DNA of 64,000 bases from Methanosarcina mazei S-6 (GTDB lineage: Archaea > Halobacteriota > Methanosarcinia > Methanosarcinales > Methanosarcinaceae): NCBI RefSeq assembly GCF_000970205.1, contig NZ_CP009512.1:3596001-3660000 (forward strand). The letters are read 5' to 3'. The position numbers and the translations under genes are program-made. Below the pieces are notes generated by a model. It did not search any database, was not told the origin of the DNA, and saw only the letters and a list, made by a program, of their open reading frames with translations. Of the stretch, positions 2,638 through 63,305 are shown piece after piece. How positions within the stretch are numbered: the stretch's first letter is position 1; each line of letters opens with the position of its first letter.

Positions 2638-3609
2638 ATGACAGAAACTGATGGTACGGCAAATGAAGTAATATTTCTCTCAGGGGAAAGTGAAGACTCC
2701 AGGTATTCTCAGGCAGTTCACGTAACAAAAGTTTCTGTGGTTTCAAACATCTTGCTGACGTTTTTTAAGTTTTTTGCAGGAATTGTGGGTAATAGTTCAG
2801 CAATGATAGCAGATGCCGTCCATTCCACGTCAGATTTCATGACCGACATCGCAGTAATAGCAGGCCTGAAGGTTGCCCGAAAGCCCGGAGACAGTACACA
2901 TAATTACGGGCATGGGAAGATCGAAACCCTGTCTGCTGCATTTATAGGGCTCGTACTCATTGCAGTAGCTTTCGGGATTTTCTGGGGAGGGCTCGAGAAG
3001 GTTATTGCTTTTTACCATGGGGAAATGCTGCCTGCTCCCAGTGGAATAGCCCTCAGTGCAGCAGTCCTTTCAATTGTAACCAAAGAATGGCTATTCCGCT
3101 ACACAATAGTATACGCCCGGGGGCTCAGGAGTGATGCTCTTACTGCAAACGCCTGGCACCACCGTTCTGATGCGTTGTCTTCAATAGGGACAATGATAGG
3201 GATTGGAGGTGCAGTCCTTCTCGGAGGCAGGTGGGCGGTACTCGACCCCATAGCTGCTGTCATATTGAGTTTTTTTGTATTCAGAGTGGCAGTCGAGATC
3301 TCGTATAAGAATCTCAACGAACTGCTGGAAGCCTCTCTGGATTCTACAACTTACAAAAGTATTGAGGAAATCCTCATATCCACAGAAGGAGTACTGGGTT
3401 TCCATGAGTTAAAGACCCGAAAGATAGGAAATGCGATGGCTGCAGATGTACACATAGAAGTGGACAGAAACCTGAATATTGTGGACGCACACGAGATTTC
3501 GGTTAAGGTTGAAGACAGGTTAAAGGAAGTCTGCGGCAAAAACGGTTACTTCTCAATTCACGTAGAACCCTGCCCAGAGCACGAACCGGGATATGGAAGA
3601 AAAAATTAA
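2638..3609 (+). CDS. Cation diffusion facilitator (zinc-type metal exporter)
   Basis: An integral membrane protein of 323 residues of the CDF family, which exports divalent metal ions in exchange for protons. Helix 2 carries AVHSTSDF (His62, Asp66) and helix 5 carries AWHHRSDALSS (His174, Asp178). This is the HxxxD/HxxxD tetrahedral site usual in zinc/cadmium transporters. HNYGHGKIE between helices 2 and 3 is also typical. The C-terminal 90 residues form the cytoplasmic metallochaperone-like domain ending in HVEPCPEHEPG. It is monocistronic: a promoter lies just upstream and the next gene is convergent. The metal assignment is inferred from the motifs only. Confidence 0.93.
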   Translation: MTETDGTANEVIFLSGESEDSRYSQAVHVTKVSVVSNILLTFFKFFAGIVGNSSAMIADAVHSTSDFMTDIAVIAGLKVARKPGDSTHNYGHGKIETLSAAFIGLVLIAVAFGIFWGGLEKVIAFYHGEMLPAPSGIALSAAVLSIVTKEWLFRYTIVYARGLRSDALTANAWHHRSDALSSIGTMIGIGGAVLLGGRWAVLDPIAAVILSFFVFRVAVEISYKNLNELLEASLDSTTYKSIEEILISTEGVLGFHELKTRKIGNAMAADVHIEVDRNLNIVDAHEISVKVEDRLKEVCGKNGYFSIHVEPCPEHEPGYGRKN

Positions 3610-3679
3610 ACACAGGAATTTTCCTGAAATGAGATTTCCTTTTGAGATTATAAGTCATTTTTTTGAATACAAAACAGCA

Positions 3680-5698
3680 TCAGGTTTTGACCCCGTTTTT
3701 TACATTTATGCCCAGAATGAACCTGGTTCCCTGACGCCTTTCAAGTTTAACACAGCCATCTATCTGTTCAACGAGGAGATTTACGAGTTGAAGACCGAGG
3801 GAATCTGCATTTTCAAAATCAGTTTCTTCCGGAACACCCTTTCCGTTGTCTGCCACAGTTAAGGTGTAATCAAATCCACTTTCACAATCGACACTCTCAC
3901 CGGAGATTCCTGCTTTTAAGGCTATTTTTTCCGTCCTGTGAAGACCTATGTAAATTTCGCCTCCCTTTCCTTCTGGAAAAGCATGCTTCAGGGAGTTTGA
4001 GACCAGTTCATTGACGATAATTCCCAGAGGGATTGAGGTATCCATATCAAAATGGGCCTGTTCAAGGTCAAGCCTGAGAGTTATTTTATCATTGCCCACA
4101 CGATATGAAGCTAGAAGATCTGCAGTCAGTTTCCTGAGATAGGCGGAAAAATCGAGAGTGTCCATATCGCTGCCTTTGTATAATTCTTCATGAATCAAAG
4201 CCATTGAAGCTACACGGTTCTGGCTCTCACGGAAGGATTCAAGCATTTTTCTGTCACTGAACTTTTCAGCTTCGAGGCTGAGAAGGGACGAGATTACCTG
4301 CAAATTATTCTTGATTCTGTGGTGGATTTCCTTTATGCGGACTTCCTCGATTTTTTGAAGAGCTGCCTCTGCCTTTTTACGTCCGGTAATATCGTGAATA
4401 AATCCCTGGAATTGCCTGGAATTTTTGGATTCTTCCGGAAATTTCTGAAGAAACTCCCTTATCCACCTTATTTCTCCATTTTTTCTCTTTATCCTGTACT
4501 CGGTTTCAATAGAATGATCGGGATTGGAAACAGACCTGTTTATTCTCTCAAAAATAAGATACTGGTCTTCAGGTAAGACCAGATCTGCCCATTTGACCCT
4601 GTGAGAAAGAAAATCTTCTGTACTGTACCCCGTAATCTCTTCAACGTCCCCATCTATGAAAACCGTACCCTTACTATCATCAAAACGGAAACCGATCAGT
4701 CCTTCGATATCCTTCACCAGGGAAGAATAAGTTTTTTCATTAATTCTGGCGTTACAGGTAGAAAAGGCATCTTCCGACTCTTCCGTTTGAACGCCTAGCA
4801 TCCTGTAAATTCGCCCCTGATCGTCCTGAAGAAAAAATGTCTTCCTCCTCAAAGCCTCTTCATTCTGTTTAAGTTCCCTGAAAAGAATACTGCAGGGTTC
4901 GCTGAATCCTGTTGACACTACTGCCCTGTAAACAAAGTAGAAAGACAGTAGTTTAAAATAGTGCCCGGTAACAAACGAAAAATCATCCACATATGTAAAC
5001 CTGGCAAAGATTATTTCTGAAATAATTGTCAGGACTATGGACGCTGTGAGCAGTCTGAAAACATGGTTTTCAAATCTGTCCCTCTTTAAATAAAGAAGAA
5101 CTAATGAGCAGACCAGAATTAGAGAGATTACATATTCACTTATAATTAAAAAATCAGTCAGCCCTCTGCCTTCGATATAGGAGTCCGGAAAGTTCCTTAA
5201 AACAAAGATTGAAAGAAACAAAACAAAAGTAATTCCGGAATATACGATAAATAATTCCCAGGCAAACCTTGCTTTTTCTACAGGACTGATATCTGTTTTT
5301 AAGTTCAATAGCCTGGAATTCGACAATAATAGAGGAGCAATCAGAAACGATACGCTCTCCAGATACCTTGAAGCGATCCATAGCTGGGCAGGAAGATTCA
5401 TGCCGGACCATGAAAAGAACCCCATCCTTTCATAGGATAAAGCATGCAAAAGGTCAAGAGTCCCGATAAAGAAATAGGAGATTCCTATTAACAGTAGATA
5501 CCTGTTTTCAAGAAATGTTTTTGATTCCCAGACAACCAGAAATATAATATATGCGATTATGACGCTGAATAACTCTATAAGTGTATGGAAAAGAAGATTA
5601 TTGCTAAGACTAACCACATGCAGTAAACCTATTATAACTGCCCAGTAGATTATCCTGAAGATTATATTCCGGTTGTTTTTTAGCTCTCTTCCAGACAC
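3680..5698 (-). CDS. Membrane sensor histidine kinase, MASE3-PAS-HisKA_2-HATPase
   Basis: A sensor kinase of 672 residues. Residues about 12-265 form a multi-helix MASE3 membrane sensor. Residues about 330-445 form a PAS/PAC domain ending FIHDITGRKKAEAAL. The HisKA_2 phosphoacceptor is EIHHRIKNNLQ (His459 or His460). The ATPase domain has the N box ELVSNSLKHAF (Asn about 563) and the G1 box VADNGKG (Asp about 616). It would sense a signal at the membrane and phosphorylate a response regulator, which is not in the window. A paralogous sensor starts at the left edge. The 350 bp upstream carry tandem repeats and no other gene. The signal is unknown. Confidence 0.93.
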   Translation of the reverse strand: MSGRELKNNRNIIFRIIYWAVIIGLLHVVSLSNNLLFHTLIELFSVIIAYIIFLVVWESKTFLENRYLLLIGISYFFIGTLDLLHALSYERMGFFSWSGMNLPAQLWIASRYLESVSFLIAPLLLSNSRLLNLKTDISPVEKARFAWELFIVYSGITFVLFLSIFVLRNFPDSYIEGRGLTDFLIISEYVISLILVCSLVLLYLKRDRFENHVFRLLTASIVLTIISEIIFARFTYVDDFSFVTGHYFKLLSFYFVYRAVVSTGFSEPCSILFRELKQNEEALRRKTFFLQDDQGRIYRMLGVQTEESEDAFSTCNARINEKTYSSLVKDIEGLIGFRFDDSKGTVFIDGDVEEITGYSTEDFLSHRVKWADLVLPEDQYLIFERINRSVSNPDHSIETEYRIKRKNGEIRWIREFLQKFPEESKNSRQFQGFIHDITGRKKAEAALQKIEEVRIKEIHHRIKNNLQVISSLLSLEAEKFSDRKMLESFRESQNRVASMALIHEELYKGSDMDTLDFSAYLRKLTADLLASYRVGNDKITLRLDLEQAHFDMDTSIPLGIIVNELVSNSLKHAFPEGKGGEIYIGLHRTEKIALKAGISGESVDCESGFDYTLTVADNGKGVPEETDFENADSLGLQLVNLLVEQIDGCVKLERRQGTRFILGINVKNGVKT

Positions 5699-6662: not shown

Positions 6663-6987
6663 ACATGGATTGAAGAATAAGCAGACTTAAAATAGCGATC
6701 AAGAATTTAACTATTTCGCTCGTTAAAGTTATTATCTTTCCTCAAAAAGAAGAATTACAGAACGGAAAAACAATAGCTTCTGACTACTTTTTTACTCTTT
6801 TTTTATTTTTGATTAGCAGTAACCATTGTTTATTCTTTTATGCACGTTTCTGAGTTCTGATTCTATAACTTCTTTTTTCCCACCCGCAAAGGAATTTTTA
6901 CTGAAATCTGATCCCTTACGCAATCAGGTGCCAGCGCGCAGGGGGCTGAAACTCCAAACTTCAAAGAAACTGGCAGCGGCATAGATT

Positions 6988-7998
6988 TCAAAGAATCTTC
7001 GCCTCGATGCAGATGTTATACTGGTGAGGAGCATATGAACGGACTACCCTTTTCTCGAGAACCTCGACCTTTCTTCCTGCTTTTTCCGCAGCTTTCCGGA
7101 TAAGTTCAATAGAACTTTCAAAGAGGTCGTCTTCAGGGGTTATTCCGTAGTAGTGGATTATTCCTCCCTGCTTTGTAAGAAGGACAGCAGAATCAAGGAA
7201 TTCATAAGCATTATGGGGCAGGTTCATGATTACATGATCAGCAGTTCCTGCAAACCTTTTTGCCTCTTCTCTGGCATCACCTTCGATTGCTTCAATATTT
7301 TTTGCCGAATTGAGCGAAATATTTTCATTCAGATAGCGTACTGCTTCAGGGTTTTTGTCTATTGCCACAACCCTGGAAGGCTTTTTGCTTTTTGCAAGCA
7401 GGATACTGTAGGGGCCAACCCCGGCAAACATATCGACAACAGTATCCTCTTCCTTAATCCAGGAGAGAATTCTTGAACGTTCCGTAGAAAGGCGAGGAGT
7501 AAAATAAGCCCTTGAAAGGTCTACTTTATAACGGCAGCCATACTCCCTGTGGATTGTTTCGGTCCTGTGCTCGCCTGCAATTACCTCAAATTCCCTTACC
7601 CTGAATTCCCCGATAACAGGAGTAAGAGGCTTGACAACGGATTTTATATTCGGCTGAGTTTTCAGGAGGGCATCTGCGATCTTTAGAGCGGTTTTTGCAT
7701 CCAGTTTCTCGTCTTCCAGGAGGGCAATGTCTCCTATGACTTCATAGGCGGGAGTGAAACCGAGGATGTCTTCAGGGACAGGCTTTTTTTCCAGGGGCTC
7801 GAAATCAAAGAATGTAAGTTCAGAACCTTCAGGCAGCCCTTCCAGTTTCCCGGTATCAGGCTCTCTGGAAAGTGGGAGATAAAGGAAGGTTTCATCCGAA
7901 CCGATCTTCAAAGAATTATCAAGAATTTCAAGACCAAGGAGTATCCTTCTTGCAGGTTCTCCTTTCTTTCGGGGGACTTTTATACACTGCCTTCTCAT
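6988..7998 (-). CDS. trm5: tRNA (guanine37-N1)-methyltransferase Trm5
   Basis: A 336-residue archaeal Trm5, which transfers a methyl group from S-adenosylmethionine to N1 of G37 in tRNAs and so prevents frameshifting. The N-terminal D1 region is followed by the D2 motif FRVREFEVIAGEHRT (about 132-146), YFTPRLSTER (about 165-174), the SAM loop DMFAGVGPYS (189-198) and the catalytic NLPH motif (259-262). Gene length and domain order match full-length Trm5 enzymes. It is monocistronic; about 325 bp downstream, up to tRNA-Thr, hold no gene I can see. Confidence 0.92.
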   Translation of the reverse strand: MRRQCIKVPRKKGEPARRILLGLEILDNSLKIGSDETFLYLPLSREPDTGKLEGLPEGSELTFFDFEPLEKKPVPEDILGFTPAYEVIGDIALLEDEKLDAKTALKIADALLKTQPNIKSVVKPLTPVIGEFRVREFEVIAGEHRTETIHREYGCRYKVDLSRAYFTPRLSTERSRILSWIKEEDTVVDMFAGVGPYSILLAKSKKPSRVVAIDKNPEAVRYLNENISLNSAKNIEAIEGDAREEAKRFAGTADHVIMNLPHNAYEFLDSAVLLTKQGGIIHYYGITPEDDLFESSIELIRKAAEKAGRKVEVLEKRVVRSYAPHQYNICIEAKIL

Positions 7999-8186
7999 GA
8001 AAAATCGACCTTTCGGAAACCTAAGGTTATCCTTGTATTATTAAACTATCCCAATTTTCAGTTTCACTGATGGACAAGGTTTTCCTGATATAGGAAAAGA
8101 TTTCAGGTAGAGAAGAGATTTCAGAAACTCTGTTAAAAAAAGATGGAATTCTAAAGCATGCAAAGATAAACACCGCAGGATATTTG

Positions 8187-8456
8187 ATGGGATCCCTGTC
8201 TCTGATATATATGGCATACTCCGCAACCAGGCTTATAATTGCCGGAAAAGCACCTGCGGCAGTATTTATTCACGGCCCTTTCGGGCTTGTCACTCTCGCT
8301 CTCAGCTCTTTGTTCGTGGCTAACAGGTGGAGCTGGAAGACAGTCAAAAATATGAGAGCTCTTGTAGTTTTATTCCTATCGACTTTCAGTGGGGGAGTCT
8401 ATCTGTTTTCAGTGCTGAGTAAAAGGGAAAAAATTTTAAAAGATATACAACAATAA
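8187..8456 (+). CDS. Small membrane protein of unknown function, possibly 5'-extended
   Basis: A predicted membrane protein of 89 residues with three hydrophobic segments (about 1-18, 25-47 and 60-78). I do not recognise the family. ATG 8187 has an AGGAT site 6-7 bases upstream; a TTG at 8184 is in frame. The frame stays open upstream and reads plausibly (ETLLKKDGILKHAKINTAGY) back to an ATG at 8070, interrupted only by a TAG at 8091-8093. The real protein may therefore be longer, with the TAG either decoded as pyrrolysine or a nonsense mutation. It is convergent with the LysE gene, with a 25-bp gap. Confidence 0.6.
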   Translation: MGSLSLIYMAYSATRLIIAGKAPAAVFIHGPFGLVTLALSSLFVANRWSWKTVKNMRALVVLFLSTFSGGVYLFSVLSKREKILKDIQQ

Positions 8457-50035: not shown

Positions 50036-50851
50036 ATGAATAATTTCGAAATTTATAAGAAGATGGGCGATGACGTTCAGACAATATATAGGTCAAGACT
50101 TCTAACAGAGATACTTCTATCATTAAATGAGGGCAGCAGAAAGCTTTCCCAACTGCGTGAAATTACCGGAAGCACATCTCAGGCACTAATTCCGAAGCTC
50201 AGGAAACTCGAAGTGGATCACCTGATAGAAACAAAAGGACGCGAATATTTCCTGACGTCAGCAGGAAAAATTGTAGCTTCAGGAATAGCTGACTCTTTTG
50301 TAACATTTTGGACAATTAATAAATTTAAGCATTTCTGGATAAGACATTACCTCGAAGGAATTCCCAGTCCTTTGTTAAAAGAAATAGGATGTCTTTATGA
50401 GTCAGAAGTCCTCAAGGATCGAGGCATGAAGATCCTTAATGTCTACAACAATCAGTTAAAAATGCTTAAAGAAGCAGATCATATATACGGTATATCGTCC
50501 GTAGTAACCGAAGTGTATGCTGATGCTATCTCTGAAAGAGTGAAAGAAGGGGTCCCTGTCGAGCTTATAGTTCCTCTTCATGTTGCGGAAGAATTGAAGC
50601 GATCACCTTATCTGAAAAAAATAGAAGCACTGAAAGATTATGAAAACTTCAAATTAATGGTCATGGATGAAGATATTAAAGTTGGGCTCATTGTTACGGA
50701 TAAACGCCTTTCTCTGAACCTGTACAAAAAAGAAGGTATTGAGTACGACATAAGCACAGGCCTGTTCAGCTTTGACTCGAAGGCCATTGAATGGGGAGAG
50801 ATGCTTTTCTGGTATTGTAAAGGGAAGGCAGACTTCACAAAATTTCAGTGA
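50036..50851 (+). CDS. DUF1724-type winged-helix regulator, cassette 1
   Basis: A 271-residue regulator of the Methanosarcina ArsR-like/DUF1724 type to which the Msr methyltransferase regulators belong. The winged helix is about residues 10-85 (ILLSLNEGSRKLSQLREIT, LIPKLRKLEVDHLIETKGR); the C-terminal 180 residues form the regulatory domain (ELIVPLHVAEELKRSPYLKKI). The ATG is fixed because a 1-bp difference puts the ATG 15 bp upstream, used in other copies, out of frame. TATA-like AAGAATATATTACG lies near 49967. From 50405 on, the DNA is nearly identical to cassette 2. Ligand and targets unknown. Confidence 0.85.
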   Translation: MNNFEIYKKMGDDVQTIYRSRLLTEILLSLNEGSRKLSQLREITGSTSQALIPKLRKLEVDHLIETKGREYFLTSAGKIVASGIADSFVTFWTINKFKHFWIRHYLEGIPSPLLKEIGCLYESEVLKDRGMKILNVYNNQLKMLKEADHIYGISSVVTEVYADAISERVKEGVPVELIVPLHVAEELKRSPYLKKIEALKDYENFKLMVMDEDIKVGLIVTDKRLSLNLYKKEGIEYDISTGLFSFDSKAIEWGEMLFWYCKGKADFTKFQ

Positions 50852-50890
50852 TGTAGAAACTTGTTAGAAAATAACTGGATAGTCACCTTC

Positions 50891-54321: not shown

Positions 54322-54845
54322 TTAACCTTCATAGTCATAGAGTTTGATCAAAAAATACCCGAGCATAGGGCCGGCACCGCAGTTAACTATCGGGCCATCA
54401 GGATAAAGATATGGTTTTACCTCGCAGATAGAACTATCTCTTTAGCCTGTAGGGTTGAACTGAACTCGTCCAGCTGGGAAGTATTCTTAATTACCGGAAC
54501 ATTTCCATACGCTTTTAGTACATTTGGATCATATATCGGACTTTCAGGATTTGTATAGTTTTTAAGGGATTCTTCATTTAGTTTTAAGAGCAGAGAGATT
54601 GTTTCCTCCAAATTATTATGCCAAGTAGAGTACGGTACATCATATACGGCTATTTCTGCCCAGTAAATCGTTTCCTCTATAATTTCATTCTGACCAGGTG
54701 CATGGAAAGTATCTGCAAATGCGGGCCCTGAAAACAGGACTAGAATCAAAAAAAGATATTGATTTTTTACCCCTATTATCACCAAAACTTCCCAAAAATT
54801 AATTATTATGCGCAAAGTATGTACAGATACCTTACTCTGTCTCAC
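54322..54845 (-). pseudogene. Frameshifted propeptide-like secreted protein
   Basis: The first part has a signal-peptide-like stretch (YLFLILVLFSGPAFADTFHA) and YDPNVLKAYGNVPVIKNTSQLDEF, matching DPNFIAAYGNIPTFESLEER of the serine protease propeptide. It stops at 54417. In another frame the next stretch reads KPYLYPDGPIVNCGAGPMLG down to TAA at 54322, matching the following propeptide segment KYFYPNGPVIAYGY. A frameshift near 54425 therefore broke the gene. The start codon is uncertain (GTG 54782 is possible). Confidence 0.65.
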
Positions 54846-54928: not shown

Positions 54929-55576
54929 TTAATACCTGATCCTACACACAAGATATAATCCGAACAATCCATACATAAAACTGAAACCTGGAACGTTATT
55001 TGGTTTTTCTTTACTCGTCTCTGAGCCTGATTTAGTTTGTTGGTTTGTATTATTTTCAGTTTCATTAAGATCTGCCGCGTCCGACAATTCGGTAAGCTCA
55101 GATACATTTCCACGGAAAAACACTAAAGGAACTTCATTAACTCCAATCCGGCTTGCATGAGAATCAAAAATTTGATAAATTTCATCCATAAAAGACTTTT
55201 CAATTTCCTTATTTACCTCTACCTTAAGAACTCCCATGTTAGTGAATCCATAATTTATAATAGGGCCATCTGGATAGAAATATTTCGACATTTCACGCTC
55301 ATTAGCATTGACTTCGGTATTTACTTCAGTATAGATTAAATCAAGAGTATCAAGCCATTTTTTCCTTTCTTCCAAACTTCCAAAAGCAGGTATATTTCCA
55401 TAAGCAGCAATAAAATTCGGATTACTTTTCAATTCGTTAAGGGTTTCCGGGCCAAAATTAAGTGTTTCATTTTCCAAAATATCTTCTCCATTTTGAGAAC
55501 TAGAGCCTAAAGCACAATTTCCTAAAATATTTGCTAGTATGACGCATAGTAATATATTCAACATCTTTAAGTTCAT
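54929..55576 (-). CDS. Stand-alone protease-propeptide-like surface protein
   Basis: A 215-residue protein with a signal peptide (about 1-25), then a domain (about 40-150) closely similar to the propeptide of the neighbouring serine protease: FGPETLNELKSNPNFIAAYG, KKWLDTLDLIYTEVN, KYFYPDGPIINYGFTNMGVLKVEV. No protease domain follows. Instead an Asn/Thr/Ser linker leads to NNVPGFSFMYGLFGLYLVCRIRY, a PGF-CTERM-type anchor. It could bind and inhibit or help fold the protease at the cell surface. GAGGAGAT precedes the ATG; the gap to the protease gene is 170 bp. Confidence 0.78.
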   Translation of the reverse strand: MNLKMLNILLCVILANILGNCALGSSSQNGEDILENETLNFGPETLNELKSNPNFIAAYGNIPAFGSLEERKKWLDTLDLIYTEVNTEVNANEREMSKYFYPDGPIINYGFTNMGVLKVEVNKEIEKSFMDEIYQIFDSHASRIGVNEVPLVFFRGNVSELTELSDAADLNETENNTNQQTKSGSETSKEKPNNVPGFSFMYGLFGLYLVCRIRY

Positions 55577-55747
55577 GTATCTCCTCTCATTTCATATTCT
55601 TTGGTTATAATAAATTTGCATATAATATATATTAAAAAATAAAAAATAGTCAGTATCATTCCAATTTGAATAATGCGATATTGCTGCATATAATTTATAT
55701 CGCATTATTTCAAGGTGGAAATCTGAGCAATGTTTCTAACTGCATAT

Positions 55748-56848
55748 TTATGCTGTAAGAGGAGTTACACCTAAATCAGACTGCACTCCAGACACTGGAG
55801 AAAATATTGAAGTCGAGTAGCCTGAATTATATGTTCCTACTCCTCCCCAATGGATTCCCACAATTTTAACACCGCCACTAACATAAACGTATACAGGGGC
55901 ACCACTGTCTCCACCGTCGCAGTTATATCCTGCAACATATTGTCTATACAAAGTACCAAGAGGGTTATCGTACGATGTTCTAATCTCAGTAACGCTTCCA
56001 TAACTCCTTCCTGTCGTGATACCCGATTTATAAACTGTATCTCCTATAGCGGCATTCTCATGTGATTTTACATCTTTTAGCACATCCGTATCTGTATCGT
56101 ATATCTTTGCAGCTACGTTAGAATATGGAACCCATGAGGCATCTGCATAATGTCCCCCAACTTTACTCACTGTTCCGACTTTGTTAGCACTCGGCCCAGC
56201 AGTAGGTTGCCATATTTGATCCCCAATAGATGGTGCAGTATGTCCTGCAACAACATAACCTTTAGTTCCACTACTAGTTTGTGCAGAAAAACCAAGGGTT
56301 GATTGCTTAATTCCATCTGGTTTTTCTGTGCATATTTTTATTCCTCCGATTATCGGACGCCATGAGCTAGTACGACTAGTTGGCGTAGGAAGGTCTTCAT
56401 ATACAATTATTAATGGAACATCTTTTACGGCAATATTTTGCCCATAGTTAGAAAATAGATCATAGAGCTCATTTTCTTTAGCTGCATCGATTTTTTGTCC
56501 TTTTTCGATTGCAACCTTAAGAACGCCATCAATGGTGTAACCATAGGCTATAACAGGACCATTTGGATAGAAATACTTTGACATTTCTTTTTCAAAATTG
56601 TCGTTAACTTCAGTATATATTTTATCAAGCGTATCAAGCCACTTTTCCCTTTCTTCCAAACTTTCAAAAGTAGGTATATTTCCATAAGCAGCAATAAAAT
56701 TCGGATCATTTTTCAATTCTTCAAGAGTTTCCGGGCCAAAGGTAAGCTTCTGCTCAATCACTTCTTGTGCACTTACTGCTGGCACAACAGCCATGCTCAT
56801 CAGCAGCATTGTGGCAAGCAGTAAACTTAATACAAATTTTTTCTTCAT
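55748..56848 (-). CDS. Secreted chymotrypsin-like serine protease with propeptide
   Basis: A 366-residue S1-type protease of the alpha-lytic/streptogrisin kind. It has a signal peptide (MKKKFVLSLLLATMLLMSMA, ending VVPAVSAQ), a propeptide of about 130 residues, and the catalytic domain: His in GYVVAGHTAP, a probable Asp in DASWVPYS, and Ser in NCDGGDSGAPVYVY. ATG 56848 is used because it begins the signal peptide and AGGAG lies 10 bases upstream. It follows the structured leader and is divergent from regulator 2. The signal peptide nearly matches that of 59388-60116. Confidence 0.88.
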   Translation of the reverse strand: MKKKFVLSLLLATMLLMSMAVVPAVSAQEVIEQKLTFGPETLEELKNDPNFIAAYGNIPTFESLEEREKWLDTLDKIYTEVNDNFEKEMSKYFYPNGPVIAYGYTIDGVLKVAIEKGQKIDAAKENELYDLFSNYGQNIAVKDVPLIIVYEDLPTPTSRTSSWRPIIGGIKICTEKPDGIKQSTLGFSAQTSSGTKGYVVAGHTAPSIGDQIWQPTAGPSANKVGTVSKVGGHYADASWVPYSNVAAKIYDTDTDVLKDVKSHENAAIGDTVYKSGITTGRSYGSVTEIRTSYDNPLGTLYRQYVAGYNCDGGDSGAPVYVYVSGGVKIVGIHWGGVGTYNSGYSTSIFSPVSGVQSDLGVTPLTA

Positions 56849-56990
56849 TTCATACTCACTCCTGTTCATTCCCAGGAGGCAAGATCAAGCAAGCCTTAAG
56901 TACTCTAAAAGCTATCATTTCCTTGCCTCAGGGCATGTGAAGTTCAAATGTGCTCTGGAAGGTTTGTTTGAACTTCACATTCAAAAATCT
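56849..56990 (-). promoter_or_regulatory. Structured 5' leader (instance 3 of 5)
   Basis: Outer stem GTGAAGTTCAAA/TTTGAACTTCAC (56937-56948 with 56967-56978) with an 18-nt loop, hairpin TGCC/GGCA, a slightly mismatched AGCTTTTAG/CTTAAGGCT stem, and CTCCTG able to pair with the ribosome-site CAGGAG. Relative to instance 2, both arms of the last pairing changed together (C-G added). Confidence 0.65.
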
Positions 56991-57038: not shown

Positions 57039-57283
57039 GCTTGATTAACATTCATTAAACCAATCCTCTTTTTCATCAAAAATAACGGAATTTCAGAGCT
57101 CTAATTGATGCCACGAATTCGACCTACTTTTAGCAAATAATCTTGAGATTCTTTTCTTCACTAAGCTATAAAATTAACAAAAAAGGTAGCAACATACATG
57201 CCCCTACAAAAGAAAAGAATATATTACGTCAAAACAATTTAATAAGAAAGTGAGGAAAAAATTTGTAGATGCGGCGACAGGAA

Positions 57284-58099
57284 ATGAATGGCTTCGAAAT
57301 TTATAAGAAGATGGATGATGACGTTCAGGCAATATATAGATCAAGACTTCTAACAGAGATACTTCTATCATTAAATGATGGCAGTAAAAAGCTTTCCCAG
57401 CTGCGTGAAATTACCGGAAGCACGTCTCAGGCACTAATTCCAAAGCTCAGGAAACTCGAAGCGGATCACCTGATAGAAACAAAAGGACGCGAATATTTCC
57501 TGACGCCAGCAGGAAAAATTGTGGCTTCAGGAATAGCCGACTCTTTTGTAACATTTTGGACAATTAATAAATTTAAGCATTTCTGGTTGAGACATTACCT
57601 CGAAGGAATTCCCAGTCCTTTGTTAAAAGAAATCGGATGTCTTTATGAATCTGAAGTCCTCAAGGATCGAGGCATGAAGATCCTTAATGTCTACAACAAT
57701 CAGTTAAAAATGCTTAAAGAAGCAGATCATATATACGGTATATCGTCCGTAGTAACCGAAGTGTATGCTGATGCTATCTCTGAAAGAGTGAAAGAAGGGG
57801 TCCCTGTCGAGCTTATAGTTCCTCTTCATGTTGCGGAAGAATTGAAGCGATCACCTTATCTGAAAAAAATAGAAGCACTGAAAGATTATGAAAACTTCAA
57901 ATTAATGGTCATGGATGAAGATATTAAAGTTGGGCTCATTGTTACGGATAAACGCCTTTCTCTGAACCTGTACAAAAAAGAAGGTATTGAGTACGACATA
58001 AGCACAGGCCTGTTCAGCTTTGACTCGAAGGCCATTGAATGGGGAGAGATGCTTTTCTGGTATTGTAAAGGGAAGGCAGACTTCACAAAATTTCAGTGA
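57284..58099 (+). CDS. DUF1724-type winged-helix regulator, cassette 2
   Basis: A 271-residue paralogue of the regulator at 50036. The C-terminal two thirds are identical to cassette 1 at the DNA level, while the winged-helix part has a few changes (DDDVQAIYRS, LNDGSKKLSQ). An in-frame ATG at 57269 would add MRRQE, but the corresponding ATG is out of frame in cassette 1, so ATG 57284 is preferred. The spacing of GAGG (57253) fits neither start well. TATA-like AAGAATATATTACG lies near 57215. Confidence 0.84.
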   Translation: MNGFEIYKKMDDDVQAIYRSRLLTEILLSLNDGSKKLSQLREITGSTSQALIPKLRKLEADHLIETKGREYFLTPAGKIVASGIADSFVTFWTINKFKHFWLRHYLEGIPSPLLKEIGCLYESEVLKDRGMKILNVYNNQLKMLKEADHIYGISSVVTEVYADAISERVKEGVPVELIVPLHVAEELKRSPYLKKIEALKDYENFKLMVMDEDIKVGLIVTDKRLSLNLYKKEGIEYDISTGLFSFDSKAIEWGEMLFWYCKGKADFTKFQ

Positions 58100-59387: not shown

Positions 59388-60116
59388 TTAAATCCAATAC
59401 CAATGACTACCAATTTTCACGTAAATCGTACCTGTTAATAGCATTGAGGGTATATTTGCGTAAGGTATTCTTACATCTAAGCTGCCATCGGACTTCTGTT
59501 CCTGCCAATAAACAGTTTGCACTGCTACAGCGAGTAGAGCACTAAGTATTATTGAAGCAGTAGGTGTAAAAAATGAACCTATGATAGCACCTATTGCTCC
59601 AGCTGCACCTGTTCCCACATCTGCAACCCAATTTGCATCTCTTTCGCTGAAGTAAATGTGCACTCCCCCTGTTAAAGTGTCACCATACTGCTCGATATAA
59701 CTTCCATGCCAAAAACTTGTCCTAGCTACAGAAATTGCTGCTGCAGCTGCCGAACTATCATTGAGACTTGAAGCAGATACGAGCTTTTTGGATACCAATT
59801 CATTCTGATCTACAAAAGCAAAATTTACTCTGTTAGGATTCTCTTCATCTTTCCATGAAATAGTGTATCCAATTGATCCATCTTGTTTCTTGAAAGATAC
59901 TATTTTTTCGTCATCGGTTTCTTTCAATACATTCACATTTTCTGATACTTTTTTGAGGTCTTCCTTAGAAATTGATTTTTTGTTCGAAATGTCTATTGCA
60001 TCAGCATGCTCTTTATTTTGAGAAATGTCAGCCTGTGCACTTACTGCTGGTACAATAGCCATGCTTGTCAGCAGCATTGCAGCAAGCAGTGCACCAAATA
60101 CAAATTTCTTCTTCAT
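59388..60116 (-). CDS. Secreted protein with Gly/Ala-rich hydrophobic segment
   Basis: A 242-residue protein with signal peptide MKKKFVFGALLAAMLLTSMA, ending VVPAVSAQ-like (IVPAVSAQ). A charged region of about 80 residues follows, then ARTSFWHGSYIEQYGD and a long hydrophobic stretch (about 165-203, VGTGAAGAIGAIIGSFFTP, then SIILSALLAVAVQTVYW). The overall shape recalls secreted peptide toxins with hydrophobic cores, but no family is recognised. The signal peptide closely resembles that of the serine protease, and the ribosome-site region (CCTCCTGG then CAGAAG) matches leader instance 3, without the outer stem. Confidence 0.72.
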   Translation of the reverse strand: MKKKFVFGALLAAMLLTSMAIVPAVSAQADISQNKEHADAIDISNKKSISKEDLKKVSENVNVLKETDDEKIVSFKKQDGSIGYTISWKDEENPNRVNFAFVDQNELVSKKLVSASSLNDSSAAAAAISVARTSFWHGSYIEQYGDTLTGGVHIYFSERDANWVADVGTGAAGAIGAIIGSFFTPTASIILSALLAVAVQTVYWQEQKSDGSLDVRIPYANIPSMLLTGTIYVKIGSHWYWI

Positions 60117-60189
60117 TTCATACTTACTTCTGTTTATTTTCCAGGAGGCATTTTATGTGACAATTCATTTTTTGAGAACTCATTAAGCT

Positions 60190-62243: not shown

Positions 62244-62489
62244 GCCTGATTAACATTCATTAAATCACTTCTTTTTTTCATGCCAAATAGTAAAGTTTCA
62301 GCGTTCTAATTGACGTCAGAAATTCGATCTTACTTTCAGCAAATAATCTGGATATTACTTTCTTCACTAAATCATAAAATTAACAAAAAGATAGCAACAT
62401 ACATGCCCCAAAAAAAGAAAAGAATATATTACGTCAAAACAATTTAATAAGAAAGTGAAGAAAAAAATCTGTAGATGCGGCAACAGGAA

Positions 62490-63305
62490 ATGAATCATTT
62501 CGAAATTTATAAGAAGATGGATGATGACGTTCAGGCAATATACAGGTCAAGACTTCTAACAGAGATACTTCTATCATTAAACGAGGGCAGTAAAAAGCTT
62601 CCCCAACTGCGTGAAATTACCGGAAGCACGTCTCAGGCACTGATTCCGAAGCTCAGGAAACTCGAAGCAGATCATCTGATAGAAACAAAAGAACATGAGT
62701 ATTTCCTGACGTCAGCAGGAAAAATTGTGGCTTCAGGAATAGCTGACTCTTTTGTAACATTTTGGACGATTAATAAGTTTAAGCATTTCTGGTTGAGACA
62801 TTACCTCGAAGAAATTCCAATTCCTCTGTTAAAAGAAATCGGATGTCTTTATGAGTCTGAAATCCTCAAGAATCGAGGCATGGAGATCCTTAATATCTAT
62901 AACAACCAGTTAAAAATGATTAAAGAAGCAGATCATATATACGGTATATCGTCCGTGGTAACCAAAGGAGATACCGATTCTATTTCTGAAAGGGTGAAAG
63001 AAGGAGTCCCTGTCGAGCTTATAGTTCCTCTTCACGTTGCAGAAGAATTGAAGCGATCACCTTATCTGAAAAAAATAGAAGCACTGAAAGATTATGAAAA
63101 CTTCAAATTAATGGTCATGGATGAAGATATTAAAGTTGGGCTCATTGTTACGGATAAACGCCTTTCTCTGAATCTGTACAAAAAAGAAGGTATTGAGTAC
63201 GACATAAGCACAGGCCTGTTCAGCTTTGACTCGAAGGCCATTGAATGGGGAGAGATGCTTTTCTGGTATTGTAAAGGGAAGGCAGATTTTATAAAATTTC
63301 AGTGA
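62490..63305 (+). CDS. DUF1724-type winged-helix regulator, cassette 3
   Basis: A 271-residue paralogue of the regulators at 50036 and 57284, and the most diverged of the three (for example LVLKEIPIPLLKEI-type changes, VTKGDTDSISERV in place of VTEVYADAISERV). The last 80 or so codons are again nearly identical to the others. ATG 62490 is used for the reason given for cassette 2; ATG 62475 is in frame. TATA-like AAGAATATATTACG lies near 62420. Confidence 0.84.
   Translation: MNHFEIYKKMDDDVQAIYRSRLLTEILLSLNEGSKKLPQLREITGSTSQALIPKLRKLEADHLIETKEHEYFLTSAGKIVASGIADSFVTFWTINKFKHFWLRHYLEEIPIPLLKEIGCLYESEILKNRGMEILNIYNNQLKMIKEADHIYGISSVVTKGDTDSISERVKEGVPVELIVPLHVAEELKRSPYLKKIEALKDYENFKLMVMDEDIKVGLIVTDKRLSLNLYKKEGIEYDISTGLFSFDSKAIEWGEMLFWYCKGKADFIKFQ

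Follow-up and report, generated by a model that had tools for sequence, protein, structure and literature searches.

In the window, the 64,000-nucleotide stretch of the Methanosarcina mazei S-6 genome analysed here, a secreted serine protease is encoded beside a second protein which carries the N-terminal domain of the protease precursor and an anchor-type tail, and no protease. This domain, termed PRO here, is ~113 residues long and has no Pfam match. The pairing of the two genes is near-obligate when seen from the protease side, and its subtype specificity is real. We propose, with a probability of roughly 55%, that the partner is a cognate trans-acting propeptide, which would restrain or retain the neighbouring protease at the surface of the producing cell. 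The proposal draws on what the sequences show: the identity of the domain, a signal peptide with an anchor-type tail, adjacent genes that are matched by subtype, the trans arrangement in genome G374 and four chimeric orphan genes. The features of the locus are as follows.

55748–56848, minus strand: secreted S1 (alpha-lytic/streptogrisin-like) serine protease precursor (ORF, phmmer, structure model)
56390–56749, minus strand: PRO domain within the protease precursor (profile match, E 3e-40)
54929–55576, minus strand: stand-alone partner of 215 aa, with a signal peptide, one PRO, a low-complexity linker and a C-terminal tail of PGF, hydrophobic and basic parts
55103–55465, minus strand: PRO domain of the stand-alone partner (profile search; model blocks with pLDDT 81–97 over the domain)
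56604–56746, minus strand: 143-nt repeat, protease copy (repeat search of the window)
55320–55462, minus strand: 143-nt repeat, partner copy, 89% identical to 56604–56746
54322–54845, minus strand: degenerate PRO gene of another partner subtype (frameshifted, stop in mid-domain, no anchor)

The protease, its partner and their surroundings

The protease ORF at full length spans 55748–56869 on the minus strand; counting from the second Met gives the end at 56848 and a precursor of 366 aa. The precursor consists of a signal peptide (residues ~1–29, by eye), the PRO domain (~34–152), a linker with SRTSSW and the mature enzyme from residue ~164–166 onward (RP-IIGG). DPNFIAAYGNIPTF and KYFYPNGPVIAYGY, which the earlier note had placed in the propeptide, are both found in the ORF translation. 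Residues 189–368 of the longer reading matched streptogrisin B (phmmer, E 2.7e-6), and the catalytic part also matched alpha-lytic protease. The predicted structure (pLDDT 84.8, pTM 0.73) superimposes on alpha-lytic-type proteases with a Z of ~26 over 188 residues, starting from model residue 164, which aligns with mature residue 15A of alpha-lytic protease; for L5, alpha-lytic and streptogrisin-type chains the Z values are 26.6–24.6, with 177–189 residues aligned. The catalytic His, Asp and Ser are invariant in all 47 paired proteases described below. With this triad in a chymotrypsin fold, the window protease fits the S1 alpha-lytic/streptogrisin-like class, which we take to be MEROPS subfamily S1E, and like other precursors with a propeptide before an IIGG/IVGG-like mature start it has PRO followed by IIGGIKI. 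A Pfam search at E ≤ 1 gave no family for either the protease or the partner, and their NCBIfam matches were all below cut-off, the catalytic part matching the Rv1815 family serine proteinase at E 1.1e-4 with 21.7 bits against a cut-off of 175. M. acetivorans, M. mazei and Methanococcoides burtonii have no trypsin-family protease in Table 1 of PMC2605481.

The partner gene starts 171 bp downstream of the protease gene, likewise on the minus strand. Its PRO domain is recognised by the profile at E 8e-41, NPNFIAAYGNIPAF and KYFYPDGPIINYGF are present in its translation, and the protein shares 51% identity over 147 residues with the signal and propeptide region of the protease (E 3e-46), which bears out the earlier description of this neighbour as the same domain without protease. 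The likeness of the two genes is beyond chance by a wide margin.

The same description assigned a PGF-CTERM anchor to the partner. The PGF motif, hydrophobic segment and basic end can be recognised by eye, whereas a search of a model library that may lack this short model reported no PGF-CTERM sorting model for the window partner at E ≤ 1. Five of ten other partners gave weak, sub-cut-off matches (E 0.008–0.27) to anchor-bearing models, namely PGF-anchored substrate-binding protein, MAST and Heimdall-CTERM. Archaeosortase A is encoded by one gene in the genome of the window (TIGR04125, 264.9 bits). A C-terminal hydrophobic stretch is present in 44 of the 47 partners versus 2 of the 47 proteases, PG followed by F, V, I, L or M stands within the last 35 residues of 38 partners, and the anchor-like motif is wholly absent from three (L077, L190:16372 and L203). 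Most partners display the features of putative PGF-CTERM/archaeosortase A substrates, with PGF motif, hydrophobic segment and basic end. The partner of locus L208 is a vivid case: it tracks the propeptide of its own protease as far as IPVEE and then passes directly into the anchor, so that an anchor appears to stand in place of the cleavage tail and the enzyme.

A third, frameshifted copy had been noted at 54322–54845. It is real and frameshifted, and it proved to be truncated as well and related to another subtype. Its first frame (54417–54845) shows 69%, 65% and 60% identity to L226, L060 and L088, respectively, all of which carry a PRO subtype different from that of the window partner. Its second frame stops after LYDYEG, which leaves out the anchor and the final portion of the domain. 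The gene is a dead relative of another partner type and no copy of the window partner.

The window locus is assembled from repeated segments. FilR1-type regulator genes occur three times on the plus strand (50036–50851, 57269–58099 and 62475–63305), with 93–94% identity over the 300-nt stretch compared, and the stretches upstream of them are repeated likewise. A region with a membrane ORF of ~136 aa occurs four times, at 50886, 53874 (degenerate), 58134 and 63339. The beginning of the protease gene with its signal peptide (56766–56870) recurs with 87% identity at 60034–60138, the start of a 242-aa secreted protein without family assignment (59388–60116).

As for the fold of PRO, Foldseek returned no known fold at E ≤ 0.001, and a second structural comparison gave Z values of at most 5.1 with a mixed list of OsmC, CDF-transporter and ribosomal domains. 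The C-terminal part of the alpha-lytic protease pro region (3pro_D) appeared at rank 31 with a Z of 3.9 and an rmsd of 2.7 over 66 residues, tied with unrelated folds; no I9 chain was among the 50 structural matches listed, which rules out nothing. In Pfam at E ≤ 1, neither the alpha-lytic pro region family (presumably named Pro_Al_protease) nor Inhibitor_I9 was matched by the protease or the partner.

Pairing and subtype matching across genomes

The PRO profile matched 52 of 294 genomes of a phylum sample and 26 of the 30 genomes of the genus. The S1 profile of these proteases matched 36 of the 111 genomes of the family survey, some of them by fragments or distant relatives only, and the protease occurs in at least 13 genus genomes among the matches listed in that survey. 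All places listed for proteases were included in the examined loci, PRO loci were picked among the matches listed in the phylum and genus profile searches, and ORFs were called mechanically from stop to stop. The named loci with the family include Methanosarcina, Methanolobus and Methanococcoides; all nine have a PRO-only gene beside a protease or the remains of one, and as they overlap the loci of the G-numbered genomes they were kept out of the counts.

Of the 56 family protease ORFs whose S1 domain spans 150 aa or more, 47 have a PRO-only neighbour within 1.6 kb: 45/48 outside the metagenome-assembled genome (MAG) G347 and 2/8 within it. A first tally had stood at 47/51; the five further ORFs all come from G347 and were counted as unpaired, including two (L210 and L214) whose upstream side is overlapped by a PRO ORF in a different frame, which was taken as their own propeptide. 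Two proteases of damaged appearance (L091 and L190:3455) and two whose propeptides are split over two frames (L040 and L107) were counted, while L218, a distant relative (S1 E 3.8e-7, no PRO), was excluded and L217 has less than 150 aa of S1 domain. The 47 pairs are spread over 30 genomes. In 43 of them the partner lies downstream on the same strand, with a median gap of 115 bp and a largest gap of 493 bp. Given about eight PRO-only genes per 4.5-Mb genome, the chance of finding one within 1.6 kb of a given protease is by arithmetic below 1%. Apart from the six unpaired proteases of G347, those without a partner are L039 (aberrant C-terminus), L192 (at a contig end) and L043, which is intact and truly alone. 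Outside the family, three (L111, L128 and L130) of the seven protease loci have a PRO-only neighbour; the other four are L122, L123, L127 and L129. The genome of the window has a second protease of another subtype (L031:4405–5496, minus strand; genome 397–409 kb), whose nearest PRO-only gene (6981–8237, plus strand) is 1.5 kb off on the opposite strand, the usual order being downstream.

Winged-helix-like genes (by eye), several with membrane segments, adjoin PRO proteases in several genomes (L122:3997–4512, L123:5609–6130, L127:4061–4540, L129:3899–4594, L043:3272–4006 and L006:71–862), and perhaps they encode regulators of these proteases. The ORF at L091:3348–4451, which has no signal peptide, joins an N-terminal part that looks winged-helix-like by eye in frame to a truncated PRO and an S1 domain.

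Across the 47 pairs, the similarity of catalytic domains between genomes correlates with that of the partner PRO domains (r = 0.826). Partners were shuffled inside the 12 genomes with at least two pairs, which controls for the shared ancestry of genomes; the shuffled mean was 0.498 (sd 0.084, maximum 0.797), and none of 5000 shuffles reached the observed value. For 24 of the 47 pairs the nearest protease and the nearest partner elsewhere belong to one and the same locus. In a tree made by a quick method from few columns and 238 rows, distinct protease clades have their own partner clades, and in a four-protease array (L190; G353) each protease is followed by a different type of partner. Protease and partner probably diversified jointly, by subtype. 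A recent origin of the partners by copying of the propeptides beside them was rejected: of 44 partners, L208 alone resembles its own propeptide more than it does partners elsewhere, and for 5/44, the window pair included, the own propeptide is the closest propeptide.

How might a separate PRO protein serve the protease? In G374 two proteases have no PRO match, and a signal-like N-terminus leads almost directly into their mature start (RPAIGG). An anchored PRO gene lies ahead of each, with 38 bp between the ORFs in one case and a 40-nt overlap in the other. Read most simply, the propeptide acts here in trans from a putatively membrane-held protein. In the L190 array one protease is without its propeptide and the partner is kept, and at L062, L066, L076 and L198 an open partner ORF lies beside a broken protease. 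Proteases that are seldom without a partner, partners that are often without a protease, and decayed proteases together make the pattern predicted for a protective partner; counter-cases are L043 and the reverse case L077, in which the protease is intact and the partner is frameshifted after its first PRO. An SRTSxW-like tail next to the cleavage site is present in 26 of 44 proteases versus 1 of 69 partner domains. Contacts between such a tail and the active site are reportedly critical in alpha-lytic protease (Peters et al. 1998), and with the tail missing from the partners, tight product-like inhibition is no safe assumption.

These data bear on a different role, in which the anchored PRO proteins would be folding helpers or surface docking sites in trans and inhibition would be incidental. 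The G374 arrangement speaks for it, as do partners without the tail expected near the active site and the anchor-like motif in 38–44 of the 47 partners. Yet 44 of the 47 paired proteases carry PRO in cis, which would make a foldase in trans redundant, and the asymmetry of loss suits protection better. We consider this role unlikely, although it retains appreciable weight.

Orphan PRO genes and chimeras

Seen from the PRO side the pairing looks different. In ten closed Methanosarcina genomes (G000, G001, G002, G012, G013, G020, G024, G026, G027 and G028, each in one or two contigs), in which the domains in the examined loci sum to the profile-match numbers, the protease is represented by 8 ORFs and PRO without a protease by 42. 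Six of the 42 adjoin a protease. Around the other 36, no protease ORF of the size counted here (S1 domain of 150 aa or more) lies within 1.6 kb, and seven of the ten genomes have no such ORF in their PRO loci. Left outside the 42 are a 165-aa PRO-only remnant in L216, beside an 86-aa protease remnant, and the degenerate copy in the window. The earlier note had asked whether propeptide paralogues always pair with this protease: this holds nearly from the protease side outside G347 and is false in the other direction. The stand-alone domain is, in the letter, widespread without the protease, an outcome that the note had named as refuting its reading.

Part of the unpaired genes can be explained by the asymmetry of loss together with four chimeric orphans. 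In L073 (G029), the 5′ part of the window protease gene and ~110 bp before it are matched at 82.8%, and the 3′ part of the window partner at 94.5%. Compared with L061 of M. spelaei, L083 (G021) matches the protease 5′ part at 84.0% and the partner 3′ part at 94.7%, and L033 (G001) matches a 5-kb upstream flank with the protease 5′ part at 91.6% and the partner 3′ part at 69.9%. L229 (G004) aligns with 1.7 kb of the upstream side of the window locus, including the protease start, at 84.8% and with the partner 3′ end at 75.9%; it is the weakest case among the four. At the protein level, allowing one junction gains 24, 34, 43 and 21 identities for L073, L083, L033 and L229, with the best junctions after residues 42, 47, 89 and 119, respectively; as a control, the gain is at most 4 for five true partners. 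The junctions in the relatives lie within or before the part of the gene that corresponds to the 143-nt repeat. The other window-clade orphans gave gains of 0–12, depending on the reference (L035, L049, L053 and L063, which form one clade), and 0–6 (L085). By these sequence comparisons, four of the nine window-clade orphans are clearly chimeric, with the 5′ part derived from a protease gene and the 3′ part from a partner gene.

These four orphans are explained by recombination between the PRO repeat of the protease and that of the partner, which would have cut out the protease and left an in-frame signal peptide, PRO and anchor. That the orphan is ancestral and the protease was gained later is less simple, since it would not match the signal peptide of the orphan to the protease and its 3′ half to the partner. 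Different junctions are no proof of independent excisions, as the choice of reference pair shifts the best junction of a single orphan. Excision between the repeats always leaves an anchored PRO, and therefore a leftover PRO alone is no proof of selection. Beside the L073 chimera (~3450–4290; L008:9–842), after a stretch resembling the FilR1 region of the window, lies the gene of a secreted protein whose signal peptide is of the protease type and which has a metalloprotease-like HEASH motif (by eye).

The orphan families have dN/dS values of 0.18–0.52, which indicates purifying selection and hence that the orphans are still used. Anchored proteins have one or two PRO copies, and elsewhere PRO is fused to HEAT repeats, a NosD-like β-helix or a cohesin domain. 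In two-PRO proteins of 558–598 aa the N-terminal ~250 residues have no Pfam match (L036, L051 and L083 scanned). The HEAT-fused and tandem-PRO orphans under purifying selection show that PRO also has a use independent of the protease. At L094:4727–6268 an anchored two-PRO protein has a cohesin domain (Pfam), and three proteases (L197:3508–4743, L201:4105–4944 and L202:3932–5497) end in repeats that look dockerin-like by eye, none of them reported by Pfam at E ≤ 0.01; dockerin-like repeats and a cohesin on the PRO protein of another genome are perhaps a second way of holding at the surface.

It is not hard to extend the protease-independent use to the whole family and to regard PRO as a general surface domain of methanogens that binds ligands or partners, with adjacency to the protease arising from tandem duplication. 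The fusions, the selection on orphan families and the wider occurrence of PRO than of the protease would agree with this. However, nearly every protease outside G347 has an adjacent PRO-only gene, and the subtypes match within genomes. That no more than one of 44 partners is closer to its own propeptide argues for an adjacency that has persisted and is not due to recent duplication. As an account of the pairs we find this improbable, although it too retains appreciable weight. That the extra copies are functionless by-products of neutral tandem duplication, as the very similar L208 pair (normalised score 0.85) and the degenerate copy in the window might suggest, is very hard to reconcile with dN/dS values of at most 0.57 in every pair compared, with an architecture whose anchor-type tail is kept across genera and with the subtype matching.

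Proposed role and comparison with known systems

We therefore return to the reading of the partner as a cognate trans-acting propeptide. The partner would be exported and then held at the cell surface by its archaeosortase-type C-terminal anchor, where it would display the domain that serves the protease as propeptide. Most likely it binds the protease, mature or still maturing, in the manner of the propeptide, and docking would keep the protease restrained, retained at the surface of the producer, or both. Such restraint could spare the envelope of the producer from digestion by its own enzyme. The idea of the earlier note, that an anchored copy could protect the producing cell or hold the enzyme at the surface, is thereby partly supported. 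Loss of the protease can come about by recombination between the PRO repeats, after which one anchored PRO protein would remain. A more tentative extension is a poison-protection module, in which the protease would attack the envelopes of neighbouring cells, the anchored PRO would confer subtype-specific immunity, and the many orphans, some of them products of excision of the protease, would be immunity retained against the proteases of other strains; we regard this as doubtful.

If the proposal is true, the pair offers a first way into the control that methanogens exert over the proteases they secrete, and these organisms may have an antagonism-immunity system. The cognate and non-cognate pairs, several per genome, would be a ready set for the study of specificity. 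Among the matches listed in a search of the open-access literature (titles and starts of abstracts), nothing was found on a pair of protease and anchored PRO.

Parts of known systems resemble the pair to different degrees. In archaea, protection of a producer by part of a precursor has a precedent in halocin C8/HalI, whose precursor matures to an immunity peptide and the active agent (PMC11509114). There the target is a 76-aa peptide antibiotic and one gene is involved, whereas the methanogen case concerns a protease and a gene pair.

The pro region of alpha-lytic protease is the propeptide of the same kind of protease. Different from it, PRO has no Pfam match to a pro region, and the weak fold match is shared with unrelated structures. 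We know of no separate anchored copy of the alpha-lytic pro region. In that enzyme, the cleaved junction of the pro region is described as lying across the active site (PMC2829044).

The I29 propeptide-like inhibitors are animal proteins directed against cysteine proteases, with a domain unrelated to PRO. CTLA-2, crammer and BCPI are among them (PMC4089206), and they share with the partner the stand-alone, propeptide-like character. The stand-alone subtilisin propeptide-like inhibitors (MEROPS I9) include Plasmodium SUB1-ProM, Toxoplasma MIC5, Pleurotus peptidase A inhibitor 1 and yeast peptidase B inhibitor, and in SUB1-ProM, as in the methanogens, a freed propeptide fold is encoded as a gene of its own beside protease genes at a conserved locus (PMC6993865). 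The I9 inhibitors target S8 subtilases, whereas the methanogen protease is an S1 alpha-lytic-like enzyme, and the methanogen partner is archaeal, has no Pfam match, ends in an anchor-type tail and often carries PRO in tandem. In the papers cited here, stand-alone propeptide-like inhibitors are directed against subtilisins and cysteine proteases, and the methanogen case would add an alpha-lytic-type protease. PRO appears to be an uncatalogued domain that works like a propeptide inhibitor around such a protease, putatively surface-anchored and matched by subtype. By analogy, then, the methanogen pair would work most like the stand-alone subtilisin propeptide inhibitors, while being no member of that family by sequence.
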